Positions 1,483-10,742 of a stretch of DNA of 10,742 nucleotides are shown here, piece by piece. Numbering within the stretch: position 1 is the stretch's first letter; the number at the start of each line of letters is the position of its first letter. The translations under genes and the position numbers were made by a program. Below the pieces are notes generated by a model that saw only the letters and a program-made list of their open reading frames with translations, was not told where the DNA came from and searched no databases. The stretch comes from a bacterium (lineage in GTDB: Bacteria; B130-G9), in contig JAGHCW010000152.1 of the NCBI GenBank assembly GCA_021160245.1, forward strand, positions 1-10,742, read 5' to 3'.

Positions 1483-3045
1483 CTACCTGACTAGAACTTG
1501 CGCATTCCGCAGATCGAGTCGCTCCAATCTCCATGACAAACACCTTGCCATGACCGGGCCATGAACAGTCCATGCCCCACTCGTGTCAATGTCCACGAGA
1601 TAATATGTGTATTCCACGTCGGGGCGAACGTGGCGGTCATGGAACTCATAATGAGCGCCTGATGCTGGTGTTCCATTCGCTTGAATCAAATCGCTCGCAG
1701 CCCCGAAATCACCGCCCCGGCTCATTGATCTGAATAGGACAAAACCCGCGTTGTCGATCTCGGCGCCCGTCTCCCAGCTCAAGATAATGGAGCCTCTTCC
1801 CGGCTTTGCCTCGAACGCGACCAGGTTGACGTATGTGATGTCTTCATCAGCGTTGTAATGGTAGCCCATATTCACGTCATCGCCGCCCGTCATATCGTTA
1901 TAGCCTTCCGTGTGGGTGGTGAATTTTGGATTGGAGCTTCCGCCATAGGGGTTCTCGTCAGTGTTTCCAGAATCAACGCTTGGACTCTCGTTTTTATCTA
2001 AGAAATAGCCATCATGCTCCGTTTCCTCGCCTCTTGTGCGGAACTCGGGCTCGCAATTTATGTTGTGGTCCTCATCCGCCGTGCAGGTATCGCCTTCAAC
2101 CCCGTAACCGTCCTGCTGAACGTTGGAATACGTTATATCAAGCGAGTTCTTCTTATTGTCGGCGCCAGATATCTCGTCAGGGCCGTCACCCCAAAAGATC
2201 GAATTGATCACAACTGGATGGCACTTCGATCCCAGAAAAATCCCGCCACCAACTCCGCCAGCCTCGTTTCGAGAAAACGTGCTGTTGATGATCGTGGATG
2301 AGGCCTTGTCGCAGAAAAGACCGCCGCCATCGCCAGATGCGGTGTTCTCAATTACTAGGCAGTTTGTGAGGACATTGGATGGAGAGTTGTCGAAGAAGAT
2401 TCCGCCCCCGTTTCCACCTGATGTGTTTTCTGCGATGACTGTATCCCAGAATGTGGGCGAAGAGTTGTCGCAATAGAGGCCCCCTCCGTTACCGGTAGCG
2501 TCATTCCCAACTATCCGGCAGTGGTTGATCTCGGGGTCAGACCCGTCCAGGTGAAAGCCCGCGCCCTCAACTGCTGAGTTGTCGGTAATGATGCAGTGCC
2601 CGATTATGGGCGAGGCGCCGTTGCATAATATGGCGCCGCCTGATGCGGAATAGCCGTCCTGGAGCCTAAATCCGTCGATCTCGCAATCGGATACAGATAC
2701 AAACGTTACGAGCGTATGGCTTCCGCCACCGTCAAGGATTGTGGGATTGTCCATGTAATCGCGGGACCCGCCTCCTGCGGGGTAGCCGCCCAAAAGGGTT
2801 ACGTACGACTTCAAATTGATCGATTCGAAATAGGTCCCGGCGGCCACGTGGATTGCATCCGCCGATGTCCCCGAACAGGCTGCCATTGCCGTGTTTATTG
2901 ATGCAAAGGCATGACCCCAATCGGCTCCGGTATCACCGTCGTCACCATTTGCGGTATCCACGTAGAAATTTGCGGCGACCGCAATTGATGACATACAGAC
3001 CACGGCGACCATGATCATCGCCAACTGCAAGTTTCTGGACCTCAT
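1483..3045 (-). CDS. Secreted parallel beta-helix protein with GGG-type repeats and C-terminal FN3-like module
   Basis: 520 residues. The start is well supported: AGAGGAGAA lies 7 bases before the ATG. Residues 1-24 are a signal peptide ending at IAVA|ANFYVD. Residues 25-85 (NFYVDTANGDDG, then IHVAAGTY) match the start of the DUF1565-type right-handed beta-helix family. Residues 135-285 hold repeats of about 22-25 residues with the cores GNGGGLYCDN, GNGGGIFFDN, GDGGGLFCD and GVGGGIF, like the polymorphic outer-membrane protein repeat. Residues 404-500 are a separate domain with SWETGAEIDNAGFVLFRS and DIDTSG, often found at the end of exported proteins in environmental bacteria. It is probably a surface or secreted protein; no enzyme residues were identified. 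It is the second gene of a pair, 37 bp after its paralogue. Confidence 0.85.
   Translation of the reverse strand: MRSRNLQLAMIMVAVVCMSSIAVAANFYVDTANGDDGDTGADWGHAFASINTAMAACSGTSADAIHVAAGTYFESINLKSYVTLLGGYPAGGGSRDYMDNPTILDGGGSHTLVTFVSVSDCEIDGFRLQDGYSASGGAILCNGASPIIGHCIITDNSAVEGAGFHLDGSDPEINHCRIVGNDATGNGGGLYCDNSSPTFWDTVIAENTSGGNGGGIFFDNSPSNVLTNCLVIENTASGDGGGLFCDKASSTIINSTFSRNEAGGVGGGIFLGSKCHPVVINSIFWGDGPDEISGADNKKNSLDITYSNVQQDGYGVEGDTCTADEDHNINCEPEFRTRGEETEHDGYFLDKNESPSVDSGNTDENPYGGSSNPKFTTHTEGYNDMTGGDDVNMGYHYNADEDITYVNLVAFEAKPGRGSIILSWETGAEIDNAGFVLFRSMSRGGDFGAASDLIQANGTPASGAHYEFHDRHVRPDVEYTYYLVDIDTSGAWTVHGPVMARCLSWRLERLDLRNAQVLVR
1557..1830 (-). repeat. Copy 1 of a duplicated C-terminal module
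   Basis: This stretch, encoding the FN3-like C-terminal domain of the downstream beta-helix gene, is closely similar to 3187-3460 at a constant offset of 1630 bp. Positions 1580-1618 are identical to 3210-3248 (39 bp without a change). The coding sequence upstream of this module is far less similar between the two genes. Confidence 0.8.
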
Positions 3046-3082
3046 AGCAATTCTCCTCTTGCTTGCTGAAAAAGTTGAATTG

Positions 3083-4756
3083 TCAATTCTGTATAATACT
3101 CAGCATTAGTTCCTTTGTTTGATTAACCGCCCAAAACGCCCCATTCAGATTCATCTCGGGAACAAGGCCGCACCTTGCGGAGGCCGGCCCATGGGCAGTC
3201 CAGGTCCCGCTCGTGTCAATGTCCACGAGATAATATGTGTATTCCACGCCGGGGCGAACGTGGCGGTCATGGAAGATGTACCGCGAGCCTGACGCTGGTG
3301 TCCCATTCGCCTGAATTAGATCACTAATTGCCTCGAAGCCGCCATCCCGGCTCATTGACCTGAACAGGACAAAGCCCTCGTTGTCGATCTCCGCGCCCGT
3401 CTCCCAGCACAAGATAATCGTGCCTATTCCCGACCTTGCCTCAAAAGATGCGAGCTCTATATATGTATTGCTCTCATACTGATAGTGATAACCCATGTCC
3501 ACATCGTCGCCGTCGGTCATGTCGAGGTAACCATTCACATCGGTCGAGTATGCCGTGTTGCCAGCGCCTCCGTAGGGATTCTGGCTGGTGTCGCCGGCGT
3601 CGATGCATGGGCTTTTATCATCCTCCGTCTCATAGCGAAGGAAGTAGGTGTCATATCGCACGCCACCATATCCGCGCGAGACGAACTTCGGATCGACAGA
3701 GATGTTGTTGTTCTGGCCGCTGCAAGTGCCGTCCGAAATGTCGCAGTAGGATATTTCCGAACAGTCCATGTCCGCGATGTCGTCGCCGTTGTCCCAAATG
3801 ATGCTGCTTCTTAGGGTCGAAGTGTGCCCCGAGACGTTCACGCCGTCCGGCGAGTTGTTCGCCACCGTGCAATTTGTCATCGTGAGGTCTGATAGATGGC
3901 CGTATATTCCGCCGCCATGAGCATAAACAGGAGCGCTCAGGCCGTTGTCTATGACGAGGCAGTTAGTTATCTCAACTATGCATGAGTCCGTATCGTCTGC
4001 AATGGCGCATCCTATGCCTCCTCCCGCGACCGAACCGCCCGCGTCCTGCGCCTCGGCGAAATTGCCTGCAATCGCGCAATCCTCGATCACGACATTGCAG
4101 GTTCCAAAATAGACAGCGAGGCAGCCAATGCCTCCACCTGCTCCGTCTGCTGTACCGGTCGTTTTCACGGTGTTGTGAGATATAACGCAATCCCTGATGA
4201 CGGGCGAAGAGGTCCCAGATAGGACGCCGATGCAGGCAATTCCCGCCGCGCCAGCATATTCCCCGAGCGCCTCGTTTCCGGTGATGATGCAGTTCTCAAT
4301 TGTGGGCGAGCAGTTCCAGATAAGGATGCCACCACCATAGGCGTCGGCAGTGAATGGGGTCGAGGCGCCAGCTTTGCCTCCTTTGATTGTCATTCCCGAA
4401 ATCGTCGGAGCGCCGTCGCTAATGCACGAGATGACGTGCTTGGCGGATTCGCCGGCATCAACCGTTACATTGTCGGGAGATTCGCCCAATAGACTGACGT
4501 TGGAGTTCATACCGAGCGGAAAACTCTCGCCCAGCGCGGTGTCGTACGCCCCGGCAGCAATATAGACATAATCGCCCGAGCTCGTCGCGTAATTCAGCGC
4601 GTAGGTTATCGTCTTGAATGGATTGCCCTCGGTTCCGGCGCCGGGGTCATCGCTGCCACTATTTGCATCCACATAGTAATCGTGCGCGATGGCAACGGAG
4701 ACCGGGAACATCATCAAGAGGATTAGGGCAAATAGAGTCAGATAGCGTCTATTCAT
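3083..4756 (-). CDS. Secreted parallel beta-helix (DUF1565-like) protein with C-terminal FN3-like module
   Basis: 557 residues from the chosen ATG at 4756, which has GGAG 7 bases upstream and begins a clean signal peptide (MNRRYLTLFALIL, hydrophobic core, cleavage near VAIAHD). An in-frame ATG at 4780 would put eight extra residues before it and is less likely. The mature start (YYVDANSGSDD, NPFKTITYAL, VYIAAGAY) is typical of DUF1565-type beta-helix proteins. A long helix with repeats of the form IENCIITGN, IRDCVISHN, IEDCAIAGN, ITNCLVIDN and MTNCTVANN follows, each coil carrying a conserved Asn-Cys or Asp-Cys. The end (SFEARSGIGT, TGAEIDNEGFVLFRS) is the same module as in the next gene. It is likely a secreted or surface protein; the ligand is unknown. 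It is the first gene of the minus-strand pair. Confidence 0.85.
   Translation of the reverse strand: MNRRYLTLFALILLMMFPVSVAIAHDYYVDANSGSDDPGAGTEGNPFKTITYALNYATSSGDYVYIAAGAYDTALGESFPLGMNSNVSLLGESPDNVTVDAGESAKHVISCISDGAPTISGMTIKGGKAGASTPFTADAYGGGILIWNCSPTIENCIITGNEALGEYAGAAGIACIGVLSGTSSPVIRDCVISHNTVKTTGTADGAGGGIGCLAVYFGTCNVVIEDCAIAGNFAEAQDAGGSVAGGGIGCAIADDTDSCIVEITNCLVIDNGLSAPVYAHGGGIYGHLSDLTMTNCTVANNSPDGVNVSGHTSTLRSSIIWDNGDDIADMDCSEISYCDISDGTCSGQNNNISVDPKFVSRGYGGVRYDTYFLRYETEDDKSPCIDAGDTSQNPYGGAGNTAYSTDVNGYLDMTDGDDVDMGYHYQYESNTYIELASFEARSGIGTIILCWETGAEIDNEGFVLFRSMSRDGGFEAISDLIQANGTPASGSRYIFHDRHVRPGVEYTYYLVDIDTSGTWTAHGPASARCGLVPEMNLNGAFWAVNQTKELMLSIIQN
3187..3460 (-). repeat. Copy 2 of the duplicated C-terminal module
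   Basis: This is the partner of 1557-1830 and encodes the same FN3-like end domain. The high DNA identity here, against divergent beta-helix parts, points to a recent duplication or gene conversion limited to the module. Confidence 0.8.
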
Positions 4757-4780
4757 ACAGAGCTCCATTGATAGAAGCAT

Positions 4781-5033
4781 ATCGCTCGAAAATGTCTGAG
4801 AATTCTCAATGCAATGGAGTTACGCAAGCTGCGGAATGCAGCCTATTGGTGTGTCCAAGAGCATCGTTTGCGAAAGCCGCAAGCGTTACGCTCTAAATCA
4901 CACCTCACAACTCAATGGTACACTTTACCCAGAACTCCCGAAGTGTCAAGATGGGATTAGTGTATTCTCGTCATATATCTGCTTGAATCTGCCCAAACCA
5001 CTTGGCGGCGCATGAGAAGCCCTGATAGGTCAA
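4781..5033. other. Intergenic region, no gene seen
   Basis: About 250 bp between the first beta-helix gene and the tRNA. It must hold the promoter of the minus-strand pair, but I see no convincing -35/-10 pair. It contains a 10-bp palindrome GAGAATTCTC at 4798-4807 and an 8-bp stem CGTTTGCG/CGCAAGCG (4864-4884, one G-T pair) with no T-run. Confidence 0.5.
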
Positions 5034-5118
5034 TGCCGAGGGCCGGACTTGAACCGGCACGAGCTGTTAGCCCAGCGGATTTTAAGTCCGCTGCGTCTAC
5101 CTATTCCGCCACCCCGGC
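5034..5118 (-). tRNA. tRNA-Leu (anticodon TAA)
   Basis: On the minus strand the sequence folds as a class II tRNA of 85 bases. The acceptor arm is GCCGGGG (5118-5112) paired with CCTCGGC and discriminator A at 5034. The D-arm region is GGCGGAATAGGTAGACGC. The anticodon stem is GCGGA/TCCGC with loop CTTAAAA, giving anticodon TAA. A long variable arm (TGGGCTAACAGCTCG) and the T arm GCCGG-TTCAAGT-CCGGC follow. The 3' CCA is not encoded (TTG follows). A long variable arm and this anticodon identify leucine. The 5' end is only 18 bp from the stop codon of the integrase gene. Confidence 0.95.
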
Positions 5119-5136
5119 AAGCCTTATTTCAGCGTG

Positions 5137-6225
5137 TCATGATTCCACCGTGCCGCTATTGTGCCATTCAGTCCCGGCGCTCGCTGCTACCGCCGGGGCG
5201 CTTTTCGGAGGTTCAACGTCGAACTCGTTGAGCTTATCCGCCGCCGCAAGGAGTCGATTCCAGGAGGAGACGAGGTATATGAATGATGTGTTGATGTTCC
5301 GATGTCCAAGAAGACGCTGTATGCTCACTACGTCTATCTTTTGTCCAACAAGCCAACTTGCGTATTGCCGTCTCAGGTCGTGAAAGCGAAAGTCCTCGAT
5401 CGCAGCTCGTTTGAGGGCCTCGACCCAAGCAGTGCGAACGGTCTTGAATGGGAATACTCGATCTGTATCATGTGGAAGCGCGTCCAGAATATGCCAGGCT
5501 CGCTCTGGCAAGGGAACGACCCGACGCCCGGTCTTGCCGCCTTCGACGTTTAGCCGTCGGTTATGATGGTCAATGCAGCGCCATTCAAGAGCCTGGAGCT
5601 CGCCCAGGCGAAGGCCGGTCAGAAGGGCAGTCTGGACAAGCGGCAAGAGCCACCGAGAACGGCTCTCCTTGCAGGCCTTTAGAAGATGCGTCAATTCCGA
5701 ATCCGTCAACACCCGATCGCGGGATTGTTCCTTGAACTTCTTAACCTCTCTGACGACATTCGGGCCTGAATATAAGTCCCAGGCGACGGCCTTGTTCAGC
5801 GCATGCTTGAGCAGCCCGAGCTCCATGTTGATAGTCCGCTCGCTTGCTCCGGAGTTCTTGCGGTGTGCCTGATAAATTTCTATGCTCTTGATGGAAACCT
5901 GATCCAAGAAATTTCCTCCGAACTCCTCTTTCAGGTGCGCCACCAGATACAGGTCTCTTCGATAGCTCTGAAATCTTTTAGAGGTCTTAGCCCAGGTCAA
6001 GTAGCGCTTTAGGAGATTGGCGATGGTGATCTTTGATCGATCCGGAAGCCCAAGATGCACCTGCTGGGCTAGCGATGTTCGTCGCGCCTCGAGGATTGCT
6101 TTAGCTGTGGTGAACGAGGCCGTTCCGCAGCTCTGCCGAAGGCGCTTGCCACCGACCTGGCAATCGATCCACCAACGTCCATTGCGCAGCCGCAACCCTC
6201 GATGCTTTATGCTCTCATTCTTCAC
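5137..6225 (-). CDS. Tyrosine recombinase / phage-type integrase
   Basis: This protein integrates and excises the element by site-specific recombination. Counting from an ATG at 6270 (377 residues), all active-site residues are present: R221 in TGLRLGEL, K246 in GGKTGRR, H297 and R300 in FHDLRRQYA, H323 in LLGHRN, and the nucleophile Y332 in SFIYLVS. Residues 25-75 resemble a small arm-site DNA-binding domain and 81-165 the helical core-binding domain. The start is uncertain. I prefer GTG at 6225 (362 residues), which overlaps the upstream stop as GTGA and has AAGG 8 bases upstream; the ATG at 6270 has no clear ribosome site and would overlap the upstream gene by 49 bases. The last 25 residues are a poorly conserved tail. 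The gene ends beside the tRNA, which suggests the attachment site lies there. Confidence 0.93.
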   Translation of the reverse strand: MKNESIKHRGLRLRNGRWWIDCQVGGKRLRQSCGTASFTTAKAILEARRTSLAQQVHLGLPDRSKITIANLLKRYLTWAKTSKRFQSYRRDLYLVAHLKEEFGGNFLDQVSIKSIEIYQAHRKNSGASERTINMELGLLKHALNKAVAWDLYSGPNVVREVKKFKEQSRDRVLTDSELTHLLKACKESRSRWLLPLVQTALLTGLRLGELQALEWRCIDHHNRRLNVEGGKTGRRVVPLPERAWHILDALPHDTDRVFPFKTVRTAWVEALKRAAIEDFRFHDLRRQYASWLVGQKIDVVSIQRLLGHRNINTSFIYLVSSWNRLLAAADKLNEFDVEPPKSAPAVAASAGTEWHNSGTVES

Positions 6226-6917
6226 GCTTGCCGCCTTCGCCGTTTTCGCATATACGCCTTGCCCCCGCATTGGTGACCGCAGAATTTAGCACCTCGACGC
6301 CGTGCGAAATACTGTCCGCAACCTCCGCAAATCCCCACTTCCTTCGCGTTCACCCAGGGATGTAACCAATTCGGCACGTCACGCTTCTTCATCTTGAGCA
6401 GCAGCGGCAGCGGCACGAAGCACATAAGCAAGGGCGAAGATTGACTCCATGCGCCGTTCTTGTGCTCGAAGGCAAATCCAAACCATAAGTAGGGATGATA
6501 ACGAGCGCCGGGAGCCGAGGGGTCGGGTTCATACTTGTATCTCCCATCCCGATTCTTCAGGGCGAATGTGCCATAAGCGGAACTCGGCTGCAGAACCCGC
6601 TCTTCTTCCCACCCGGCTCGTGTGAGAATCTTGAGCGGTCGAGCAGGCATCGCCACATAGGAACACTCCGAGAGAATCCCTATCTGACCCAGAGATAGTG
6701 ACTTTCTGTCCTCTGGTGCCAATCGACGTAAAATCAAACGCCTCAACTTGCTGAAGGAGCCGCCCTCCGGAATCTCCACCTGACTCCGAAACTCAGCCAT
6801 GATGTCGTCCAAGACCTTAGGTTCACTCTTGATGACGCTCGACTCCACAAGAGACCGCTCCGCGCAGTGTTCGGGAATGCCGGCAGAACCCCGATCACCC
6901 ACGAATATCCTAGTCAA
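6222..6917 (-). CDS. Putative zinc-binding, DNA-associated protein with C-terminal CxxC-x12-CxxxC motif
   Basis: 231 residues from the TTG at 6917. The strong ribosome site AGGGAGG (6926-6932) lies 8 bases before this TTG; a GTG at 6924-6926 touches the ribosome site and so is unlikely. The C-terminal 35 residues contain CGGCGQYFARRRGAKFCG, followed by a fourth cysteine: CX2C, 12 residues, CX3C, then a very basic end (MRKRRRR). This is a zinc-ribbon-like arrangement seen in small DNA- or RNA-binding proteins. The rest (SLSLGQIGILSE, PYLWFGFAFE) is not recognised; the family may be CGNR-like, but I am not sure. Its stop overlaps the integrase GTG by 4 bases, so the two are translated together. 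It may regulate the integrase or act with it. Confidence 0.75.
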   Translation of the reverse strand: MTRIFVGDRGSAGIPEHCAERSLVESSVIKSEPKVLDDIMAEFRSQVEIPEGGSFSKLRRLILRRLAPEDRKSLSLGQIGILSECSYVAMPARPLKILTRAGWEEERVLQPSSAYGTFALKNRDGRYKYEPDPSAPGARYHPYLWFGFAFEHKNGAWSQSSPLLMCFVPLPLLLKMKKRDVPNWLHPWVNAKEVGICGGCGQYFARRRGAKFCGHQCGGKAYMRKRRRRQA

Positions 6918-6925
6918 CGAGCCCA

Positions 6926-6932
6926 CCTCCCT
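6926..6932 (-). promoter_or_regulatory. Ribosome binding site deciding a TTG start
   Basis: AGGGAGG on the minus strand, 8 bases before TTG at 6917. It favours TTG over the upstream in-frame GTG. Confidence 0.6.
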
Positions 6933-7084: not shown

Positions 7085-7309
7085 ATGAGCAGAGCGAGAA
7101 TGATTGCACATGGGCCCACCAAACGCTGGCTCAATTCAGCGGAAGCGGCCTCATATCTTGGACTCTCCATCAAGGCCTTGTACGAGCGATGTCGCCTCCG
7201 AAAACTGCCATATTCACGACTCGGCGGGAGCTTGCGCTTTGACAAGCTCGAGCTTGACAGAATTCTTGAGAGAAGCCGCGTGAAGCCCGTTGGGATGCAC
7301 AAGCAATGA
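7085..7309 (+). CDS. Excisionase-family / AlpA-like helix-turn-helix protein
   Basis: 74 residues. The start at 7085 is fixed by AGGAGG (7072-7077) 7 bases upstream; the open frame continues further up but without such a site. The protein is almost wholly one MerR-type winged HTH of the excisionase class: WLNSAEAASYLGLSIKALYE (recognition region), then LPYSRLGGSLRFDKLELDRI, with the conserved G-G-S-L-R-F wing. Proteins of this family are DNA-bending excision factors or, in satellites, AlpA-type activators of the replication operon. It is the first gene of a three-gene operon and its stop overlaps the next ATG (ATGA at 7306-7309). It probably binds the repeats in the region just upstream. Confidence 0.88.
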   Translation: MSRARMIAHGPTKRWLNSAEAASYLGLSIKALYERCRLRKLPYSRLGGSLRFDKLELDRILERSRVKPVGMHKQ

Positions 7310-9003: not shown

Positions 9004-9316
9004 ATGCAAGCAAATGTTGACAAGATGAAAAGCAGCTCAAACCAGGGTGTCCCGCCCTGTCCCATCAGCACCACGAAACTGAGAAACAGGCAACATGAAC
9101 TCCCAATTATAAGTCCCGTTCGACTCCGACCGGGAGACCATAATCAAGGCCCTCAATGACAGACATGTCATCTGCACTTTACCAAAGTCTTGCATTTGCA
9201 TCCTGCCGATCCGGGCTTTGTTCAAATACATACCGCAAGACTTACTCATCGAGGGTTTCCAAAAAGGCAAGCGCATGCGGAGACGACAATCCCTGGTCAA
9301 ACGGACACAAACTTGA
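9004..9316 (+). pseudogene. Possible small gene interrupted by a +1 frame change
   Basis: Two overlapping plus-strand frames look like pieces of one protein of about 103 residues. The first runs from ATG 9004 (MQANVDKMKSSSNQ ... RQHELPIISP) and stops at 9159. The second is open from 9113, just after a TAA in that frame, with DSDRETIIKALNDRHVI and IPQDLLIEGFQKG, and stops at TGA 9316. Joining them needs a shift of one base near CCCGTTC at 9115-9121. Third codon positions are GC-rich in the second part, which supports coding. There is no clear ribosome site before 9004. It could be a decayed gene, a sequencing error, a recoded gene, or chance. I recognise no family. Confidence 0.3.
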
Positions 9317-9336
9317 AAAATGGCCAAATCTGGGGT

Positions 9337-9368
9337 ATGTTCGAGCTGGCGCAAAGCTGCTCGAACAT
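9337..9368. repeat. Perfect 10-bp inverted repeat
   Basis: ATGTTCGAGC (9337-9346) and GCTCGAACAT (9359-9368) are exact reverse complements around a 12-base loop. The position just downstream of the primase/possible frameshifted gene could suit a terminator, but no T-run follows. Confidence 0.7.
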
Positions 9369-9419
9369 CACAGTGAGTCACCCATTGTTACAGTTCGTCA
9401 TCTCATCTATCAGAGCTTA

Positions 9420-9440
9420 TTGGGGGGCACCTCCCCCCAA
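9420..9440. repeat. G6/C6 hairpin
   Basis: TTGGGGGG (9420-9427) pairs with CCCCCCAA (9433-9440) around a 5-base loop. A smaller CCACC/GGTGG stem follows at 9446-9462. On the minus strand the block has four nearby G-runs. Confidence 0.7.
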
Positions 9441-9542
9441 ACCTCCCACCTTGCTTCGGTGGTGTTATTTGAAGGAAGACAGCTCCCTCCAGATGGGCAC
9501 GGGTTGATTGATGACATTTCAAGCAGCGTGTTGAGTATAGAC

Positions 9543-9579
9543 GCCTGCATCAGCTAAGAGCCGACCCCCAAATGCAGGC
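9543..9579. repeat. 8-bp inverted repeat
   Basis: GCCTGCAT (9543-9550) and ATGCAGGC (9572-9579) are exact complements with a 21-base spacer. Confidence 0.6.
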
Positions 9580-9902
9580 TAGGCGTGTTGAGCTCTCCTG
9601 GCCGAGGGGCAGTCGCTCGCGTGATTCATTGCAGGGCACTTGCGAAATTTTCCGAGTCGTTTTTTGTGCATGTTTTTTTTCGATTGAGAATTTTTCAGAG
9701 AGAGAAAAATGACCCACTACTGACCCATGAGAACCCTTTGAAATCTGAACCGGCATACTGTCAACGACAGGCAAGTCAGAGGGCGAGATATGAAGCCCGA
9801 TGATTGATTGATGGAGCCACAAGGAATCAAAGGATGTCGGGAACGGCGCTAAAGGCTTGTTCCCTCTGCATAGGATGGCTCGCACGAATAGGATACTACC
9901 GC

Positions 9903-9958
9903 ACAACTCTTCTCTCCGTTTGAGTTGTTGCTGTTACCGGCGAACGCATACTGCGTTC
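9903..9958. repeat. Two adjacent 7-bp hairpins
   Basis: ACAACTC/GAGTTGT (9903-9909 with 9922-9928) is followed by GAACGCA/TGCGTTC (9942-9948 with 9952-9958, three-base loop). Both are exact. Confidence 0.6.
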
Positions 9959-10089
9959 ACTAACTATACCCACCACCCCAACAATGGAGCACGCGGAACC
10001 CGTTGGCAGATAATGCGCGAGCCACACCGTCAACGGACTAGGCGACTTGAGTAGAGTATGACGCCACTCACAGCCCAGCAATAGCAGAG

Positions 10090-10168
10090 AACGCAGTCAG
10101 AATACTAATAGGAATATCTCACTGTTTGCCAATGCGATTAAAGCTGTGAAGCAGCCTCAACGCAGTCA
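10090..10168. repeat. Direct repeat AACGCAGTCA, two copies
   Basis: The same 10-mer occurs at 10090-10099 and 10159-10168, 69 bp apart, inside the gene-free region. Confidence 0.6.
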
Positions 10169-10218
10169 TTGAACGTAGCCACACAAGAGCCCGTCAAATA
10201 AGGAAGGAAGAGTGGATT

Positions 10219-10253
10219 GTTGGCTTCCGATAACGAGTGTTATCCGAACCAAC
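10219..10253. repeat. Long imperfect hairpin
   Basis: GTTGG-C-TTCCGATAAC pairs with GTTATCCGAA-CCAAC around a 4-base loop (GAGT). It forms 14 pairs with one C-C mismatch and one bulged C. Confidence 0.7.
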
Positions 10254-10290
10254 GCATGATAATCGGTGCAGTAGCCCGACATCAATGACG

Positions 10291-10351
10291 CGGCGTCCGT
10301 AGTTTACATAATGCCGCATTATGTATAAACCATGAAGGAACTACGCCGCCG
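10291..10351. repeat. Nested two-tier stem structure
   Basis: An outer stem is formed by CGGCG/CGCCG (10291-10295, 10347-10351) and CGTAG/CTACG (10298-10302, 10341-10345). It encloses an inner hairpin CATAATG/CATTATG (10307-10313, 10317-10323) extended by TTTA/TAAA (10303-10306, 10326-10329). In all, about 21 pairs fall within 61 bases. Confidence 0.7.
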
Positions 10352-10484
10352 CTACAGTCCCACCAAAGGTGTGACTCGTAAGGACAAGCAGAGCATGAAG
10401 CCACATCACACTCGGTCGGATGTTGACCGACCTGGCGCACCTTCCGTGCTCGAAGGAGAAGGGTAGGGATGCAAACATTGATAC

Positions 10485-10523
10485 CCTCAGAAGCCCACCG
10501 CATTCAGCGGCGTTCTTCTCAGG
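10485..10523. repeat. Nested hairpin
   Basis: CCTCAGAAG (10485-10493) pairs with CTTCTCAGG (10515-10523) except for one C-C mismatch. It encloses CCGC/GCGG (10498-10501, 10507-10510). Confidence 0.5.
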
Positions 10524-10593
10524 TCATGCATGTAAACCGGATCAAGGCGGGCAAAGTAGAACTTTCCCTATAGCCATAATGGAACCTCAGAGT

Positions 10594-10629
10594 GTCAAGA
10601 ACGTGGCTAGGTCAAACCTCATTCTCGAC
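10594..10629. repeat. Nested hairpin, better paired on the minus strand
   Basis: GTCAAGAA (10594-10601) and TTCTCGAC (10622-10629) pair except for one A-C on plus, which becomes a G-U pair on minus. It encloses AGGT/ACCT (10609-10612, 10616-10619). Confidence 0.5.
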
Positions 10630-10682
10630 AAAGGTGACTGGTCGTCTGTCTGTCCGACCACGAACAGCCAGCCAAAAAGTCG

Positions 10683-10717
10683 GTAGGGTGTTCGCCAGTT
10701 GAGCGAACACATCCTAC
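10683..10717. repeat. 13-bp hairpin with a two-base bulge
   Basis: GTAGG-GTGTTCGC (10683-10695) pairs with GCGAACAC-AT-CCTAC (10703-10717); the loop is CAGTTGA and only the AT is unpaired. A related smaller hairpin, GGTCGG/CCGACC at 10414-10432, also has a 7-base loop ending in GTTGA. Confidence 0.7.
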
Positions 10718-10742
10718 GCAAGCGGGTGTGATGGTCTTAGAC

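Follow-up and report, generated by a model that had tools for sequence, protein, structure and literature searches.

A candidate large structured non-coding RNA in defence-carrying integrative elements of two related bacterial genera

Introduction

The right-hand end of the DNA analysed here, positions 9317-10742 of a 10,742-bp contig (C59, in full the window) from a 3.43-Mb draft genome (G000), raises the question of what kind of sequence is at once free of genes and crowded with inverted repeats. A sequence-only reading had proposed that a mobile element here encodes a large structured non-coding RNA, either of a known class such as GOLLD or ROOL or of a new one, had offered the 5′ part of a group II intron as another possibility, and had left the strand unresolved. 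Ribosomal RNAs and introns aside, few bacterial RNAs are known to be this large and complex, and what GOLLD and ROOL do is itself still an open question. Comparison of diverged copies within G000 and in G001, a genome from another genus of the family, indicates that the minus strand of the window probably encodes most of a structured non-coding RNA of about 1.5 kb, a fixed module of integrative elements that carry defence genes.

Results

The hairpin density of 9317-10742 is real: the region contains 10 perfect stems of at least 7 bp against 3.3 ± 1.9 in 100 dinucleotide shuffles, none of which exceeded 9. The region is also gene-free as first described, since no open frame of at least 75 aa in the window copy survives across the copies. 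All 11 indels between the window and the copy on contig C170 (L007) are of 1, 2 or 4 nt and shift the frame. A protein-coding explanation was rejected because frames of at least 75 aa are closed in other copies and the indels break the frame; no conserved reading frame, which the sequence-only reading had named as counting against an RNA, was found.

At least two further diverged copies, 86-89% identical and each cut by a contig end, occur in G000 from about position 9583 rightwards. The C170 copy matches at 86% identity over 9583-10634 (1.06 kb), and the copy on C134 (L008) is 88% identical to the window over 10371-10742 (372 bp). Contigs that start or stop inside a repeat are the usual mark of multi-copy sequence breaking an assembly, and because their overlaps are 88-89% identical, C59, C170 and C134 are distinct copies. 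A further contig, C228, carries the next part of the stretch with 96% identity to C134; C59 stops where C228 starts relative to C134, and C228 may thus be the continuation of the window. The part shared by the copies begins at about 9583 rather than at 9317 and leaves the hairpins at 9337, 9420 and 9543 outside, and on the right the feature continues for about 400 nt past the window edge (L008:371-775; L029:1-400). The rightward extension that the sequence-only reading had called for was pieced together from these other contigs, which end inside the repeat, and points to an element of about 1.5 kb whose 3′ half, inside the window, is better conserved than the variable 5′ domain that lies beyond it.

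Distant homologues are found in G001 on contigs C145, C176, C89 and C171. A mismatch-free overlap of 67 bases joins C176 to C145 and gives a total length similar to that of the G000 element. Between two G001 copies, similarity is 91-55% within the RNA and no better than chance in the genes that flank it. A blastn comparison of the 5′ domains of G000 and G001 gave no match. In all, the RNA is present in two (G000 and G001) of the four genomes examined from the phylum. G001 also contains a fragment with two adjacent hairpins of the RNA, GGTCGGGTGTTGACCGACC and GGCGTCTCTCGCC, beside the end of a possible ArdC-like gene (L179:4030-4075), possibly a remnant or a shorter relative. At L178:2250-2330, in a different context, 56 nt match the GTGTGAT..TCACAC hairpin of the RNA in G001 (E 0.004), perhaps by chance.

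Table 1. Positions in the window of the candidate RNA, its structural parts and the neighbouring genes
Feature	Position	Strand	Basis or remark
tRNA-Leu(TAA), beside integrase gene	5033..5119	-	ARAGORN, Rfam
Tyrosine integrase	5137..6270	-	Pfam Phage_integrase, E 2.5e-24
234-aa protein with C-terminal CxxC zinc-finger motif	6222..6926	-	33% identical homologue in the RNA-bearing G001 element on C89 (L011)
HTH_17 protein, probably excisionase	7085..7309	+	Pfam, E 2.7e-10
Primase-like replication protein, 496 aa	7473..8963	+	PHROG primase families, E 3.5e-7; no Pfam match
Left flank with three hairpins (9337-9368, 9420-9440, 9543-9579) absent from other copies	9337..9582		Copy comparison, stem count
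Candidate large RNA, 3′ half and middle	9583..10742	-	C170 and C134 copies, minus-strand wobble-keeping changes, fold z -3.9
3′-half hairpin CTATGC-AGAGGGAAC..GTTCCC	9833..9876	-	Direct sequence comparison
Hairpin GTGAACGC / GCGTTCGC	9940..9960	-	Conserved in consensus fold of copies
Most conserved core (covariance model R1): palindromic hairpin, hairpin Pc, two-tier hairpin GTTGG..TTC..GATAAC / GTTATC..GAA..CCAAC	10214..10325	-	Retained in G001
Closing stem CGTAG/CTACG around palindromic hairpin	10290..10349	-	Stem count, sequence comparison
Hairpin GTGTTCGC / GCGAACAC, common to L008	10687..10711	-	Consensus fold, stem count

On the minus strand the RNA presumably ends (3′) between about 9583 and 9700 and begins beyond the right edge of the window. 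Its 5′ part, read from position 775 down to 371 of the C134 copy (L008), forms a closed domain, about 270 nt long, whose tip is a 13-bp hairpin; more hairpins follow. The most conserved core lies in the 3′ half (Table 1), and the covariance model built on it, R1, scores 78, 41 and 36 bits on C145, C89 and C176 in a search of the G001 genome. Within the core three pairs are changed on both sides, and 98.8% of cells are paired compared with 29-42% when the alignment is slid; hairpin Pc, shared with G001, has two double changes, and the G001 counterpart of the closing stem, GATAG/CTATC, is a double change at two pairs. Since only two genera and few sequences contribute, this covariation is below R-scape grade. 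The hairpin motif at 9833 recurs in G001 (L010, L011) as CTATGC-GAGGGAAC..GTTCCC. A short GC-rich repeat, GAGCTCTCCTGGCC..AGGGGCAGTCG, and its relatives adjoin the RNA outside the folded core in both G000 (L007:1024-1050 and 1766-1792; window, about 9585-9612) and G001 (L011, about 6733-6760), and could be a recombination site or a terminator.

The strand, described at first as unresolved, can be assigned to minus by a strand-symmetric wobble test and by consensus folding. For the test, helices were predicted giving the two strands equal weight; within them pairs of copies were compared, and single changes that keep pairing through G.U were counted for each strand. Among the G000 copies 37 changes fit the minus strand and 6 the plus (p = 1.6e-6). 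A/G changes (25:5, minus to plus) and C/T changes (12:1) both favour minus, and strand-biased mutation is therefore not the cause. The G001 copies gave 19:8 in the same direction (p = 0.05), and a coding control gave 7:7. Consensus folding of the 3′ half from three copies yielded -117 on minus versus -76 on plus, with 26 wobble-kept changes and one A.C on minus versus 8 and 10 on plus. For the 5′ half of C134/C228 the energies were -183 (minus) and -150 (plus), and for that of G001 -117 and -84, with 13 pairs showing changes on both sides; on the minus strand the 5′ half has 10 wobble-kept changes and zero breaks. For the 3′ half in G001 the changes are few and lean towards plus without settling the strand.

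Comparison of folding energy with shuffled sequence, a check that the sequence-only reading had proposed, places 9583-10742 below shuffles on either strand (z -3.1 for plus and -3.9 for minus). Minus-strand z values are -4.2 for L007, -7.4 for L008 and -7.9 for the joined G001 sequence, which folds slightly better on plus (-9.95), and two coding controls within the window gave +0.6 to +2.2. A further gene-free 1.2 kb, L007:1050-2280, separates the 3′ side of the RNA from defence genes, and its fold is not clearly below shuffles. Scans for a sigma-70-like promoter upstream of the presumed 5′ end and for an intrinsic terminator at the minus-strand 3′ end found nothing above chance.

The genes to the left of the RNA in the window are those of a mobile element (Table 1), and primase-like genes lie near other copies of the RNA too. 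To the right, a gene for a 69-aa CxxC protein is present in both genera (53% identical); in G000 it adjoins an ArdC-like gene, and sequence similar to the ArdC-like gene follows on the G001 contig. The defence genes differ from copy to copy: C228 carries type I restriction-modification, C170 an Hma/DISARM-like helicase together with a PDC-S02 nuclease and an OLD/AriA-like ATPase, and C176 of G001 DSR2 (E 1e-236). At L010:1006-4926 of G001 a complete DSR2-like SIR2 defence gene adjoins an RNA copy. From this joint pattern we infer that the RNA-bearing loci are integrative elements that share the RNA as a module and differ in their defence cargo. On C134 (L008:4752-7031) another integrase region includes a frameshifted gene, and the opposite strand encodes a PriCT_1 primase, together suggesting nested or adjacent elements.

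Integration usually occurs at the 3′ end of a tRNA gene; the 3′ end of the tRNA-Leu gene in the window points away from the element, and the attachment site was not found. This is the one tRNA in the window, and a tRNA scan of eight other loci found none. Elsewhere in the window, 1483-4780 encodes two adjacent secreted beta-helix proteins whose C termini share a domain, 78% identical over 357 bp at the DNA level, that probably serves in sorting or anchoring.

With Rfam 15 the whole window matched tRNA alone at E up to 1. When the threshold was relaxed to E 10, chance matches were all that 9300-10742, L002, L003 and L009 gave, and L010, L011, L177 and L029 had no match at E up to 2. Phage and plasmid collections yielded no homologue of the RNA, pattern scans of IMG/VR returned 15 loci, none with neighbouring RNA motifs (0/15), and a search for the neighbour proteins in viral contigs found none. 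R1 detected G000 and G001 only among 386 relatives and nothing in 195 genomes of another phylum, so that about 580 further genomes gave no homologue. A scan of a large genome collection for the palindromic hairpin pattern gave at least 115 chance matches; 80 loci were scored with R1, with a best score among the matches listed of 25 bits, and the window's own copies score 117-131. Among the genomes searched and the matches listed, the RNA thus appears to have no homologue outside its small phylum.

Discussion

The stretch diverges as non-coding sequence, is repeated and is conserved in two genera; its changes preserve pairing, and wobble conservation is specific to the minus strand. Together with the integrase, excisionase and primase-like context, these observations best support the original proposal of a large structured non-coding RNA carried by a mobile element. 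Conservation on minus only argues for a functional single strand, and hence for RNA rather than a double-stranded cruciform; folded single-stranded DNA is also compatible with it.

The alternative that survives best divides the stretch into several separate minus-strand RNAs, or makes it a leader or antisense RNA regulating either the divergent ArdC-like operon or the convergent primase-like gene. Few well-supported helices bridge the two halves, and in L008, L009 and L177 tens of bases at most separate the presumed 5′ end from the start of plus-strand genes. However, the whole 1.5 kb is kept together in one order and at similar length in two genera, and an antisense regulator seldom requires such extensive folding. 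We regard this alternative as unlikely.

An element acting at the level of DNA, namely an origin of replication, lagging-strand synthesis or transfer whose active form is folded single-stranded DNA, would also account for the wobble bias because G.T pairs are tolerated in such DNA, and a primase-like gene adjoins the stretch in the window, with others near further copies. The length and complexity of the stretch speak against this, as the single-strand origins known to us are far shorter and simpler than about 1.5 kb. No iteron-like repeats were seen in it, and the L007 and L010 copies lie beside defence genes with no adjacent primase gene; an origin is, in our judgement, decidedly improbable.

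That the copies are decayed remnants, a pseudogene or satellite with no current function, would fit their number and the partial trace at L179, but a remnant should not keep pairing on one strand only, nor would its 5′ half be expected to be 94-97% identical between two copies when adjacent coding genes are 76-97% identical, so that this explanation is very improbable. Least credible of all is membership of a known class (group II intron, HEARO/OMEGA RNA, retron or other), which the size, structure and mobile context had invited: Rfam gave neither an intron in the region at E up to 10 nor a match to GOLLD, ROOL or HEARO, and the flanking proteins scanned include no reverse transcriptase and no IscB/TnpB-type gene product.

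If the minus strand does encode a large RNA, transcription would run leftwards from its 5′ end beside the ArdC-like operon toward the primase-like gene at its 3′ end, placed at about 9600-9700, presumably as one molecule that would fold by itself into a variable 5′ domain and a conserved 3′ core. The least certain step is the last, in which the RNA might act in trans as a structural RNA, a scaffold or a homo-oligomer as for GOLLD and ROOL, when the element is active; we think this possible, on the doubtful side. The existence of a folded RNA is far better supported than any particular role for it. Somewhat less doubtful, and still tentative, is the broader proposal that this is a new giant (about 1.5 kb) class of structural RNA, a core module of an uncultured phylum's defence-carrying integrative elements, filling a role in their replication, transfer or defence that is performed by no known RNA. 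If true, it would provide a longer, unrelated case for asking what large RNAs do for mobile elements whose anti-phage cargo varies from type I restriction-modification to DSR2 and an Hma/DISARM-like helicase with PDC-S02, and one amenable to study in vitro with no need to culture the host.

Among known systems, GOLLD and ROOL both form nanocages and are large RNAs found in phages and prophages, frequently close to tRNAs; the 3′ region of GOLLD is conserved and its 5′ region variable, ROOL is without a known partner, and OLE is a large, ornate RNA that forms homo-oligomers (PMC12286853). The candidate RNA resembles GOLLD in being large, heavily folded and carried by mobile elements, and in its conserved 3′ and variable 5′ organization, the 3′-half core being alignable between genera and the 5′ domains not matched by blastn. 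Unlike GOLLD, it has no Rfam covariance match, is about 1.5 kb rather than about 800 nt, resides in defence-carrying integrative elements and is near a tRNA in the window copy only. ROOL, at about 580 nt, is likewise a large ornate RNA in a mobile context, but the candidate has no Rfam match to it, is more than twice as long, differs in host lineage and element type, and shows no tRNA-island pattern. OLE shares its size and ornate structure, but OLE has protein partners, the candidate has no Rfam match to it, and to our knowledge OLE is not known from mobile elements.

Abundant ORF-less transcripts have been described in phage ICP1 (about 800 nt) and its satellite PLE (IIR) (PMC7567579). The candidate is likened to these by description, being ORF-less and in a comparable mobile setting; unlike it, the IIR sits between inverted repeats and has demonstrated expression. 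A cage-like oligomer would be an analogy with GOLLD and ROOL, not a result. The candidate has the features common to large ornate RNAs, being long, non-coding and extensively structured in a conserved way. By the tests made it appears to lie outside GOLLD, ROOL, OLE, HEARO and the group II introns and to exceed the first three in length, and it is best read as a new class of large ornate RNA, comparable but apparently not homologous to GOLLD and ROOL.
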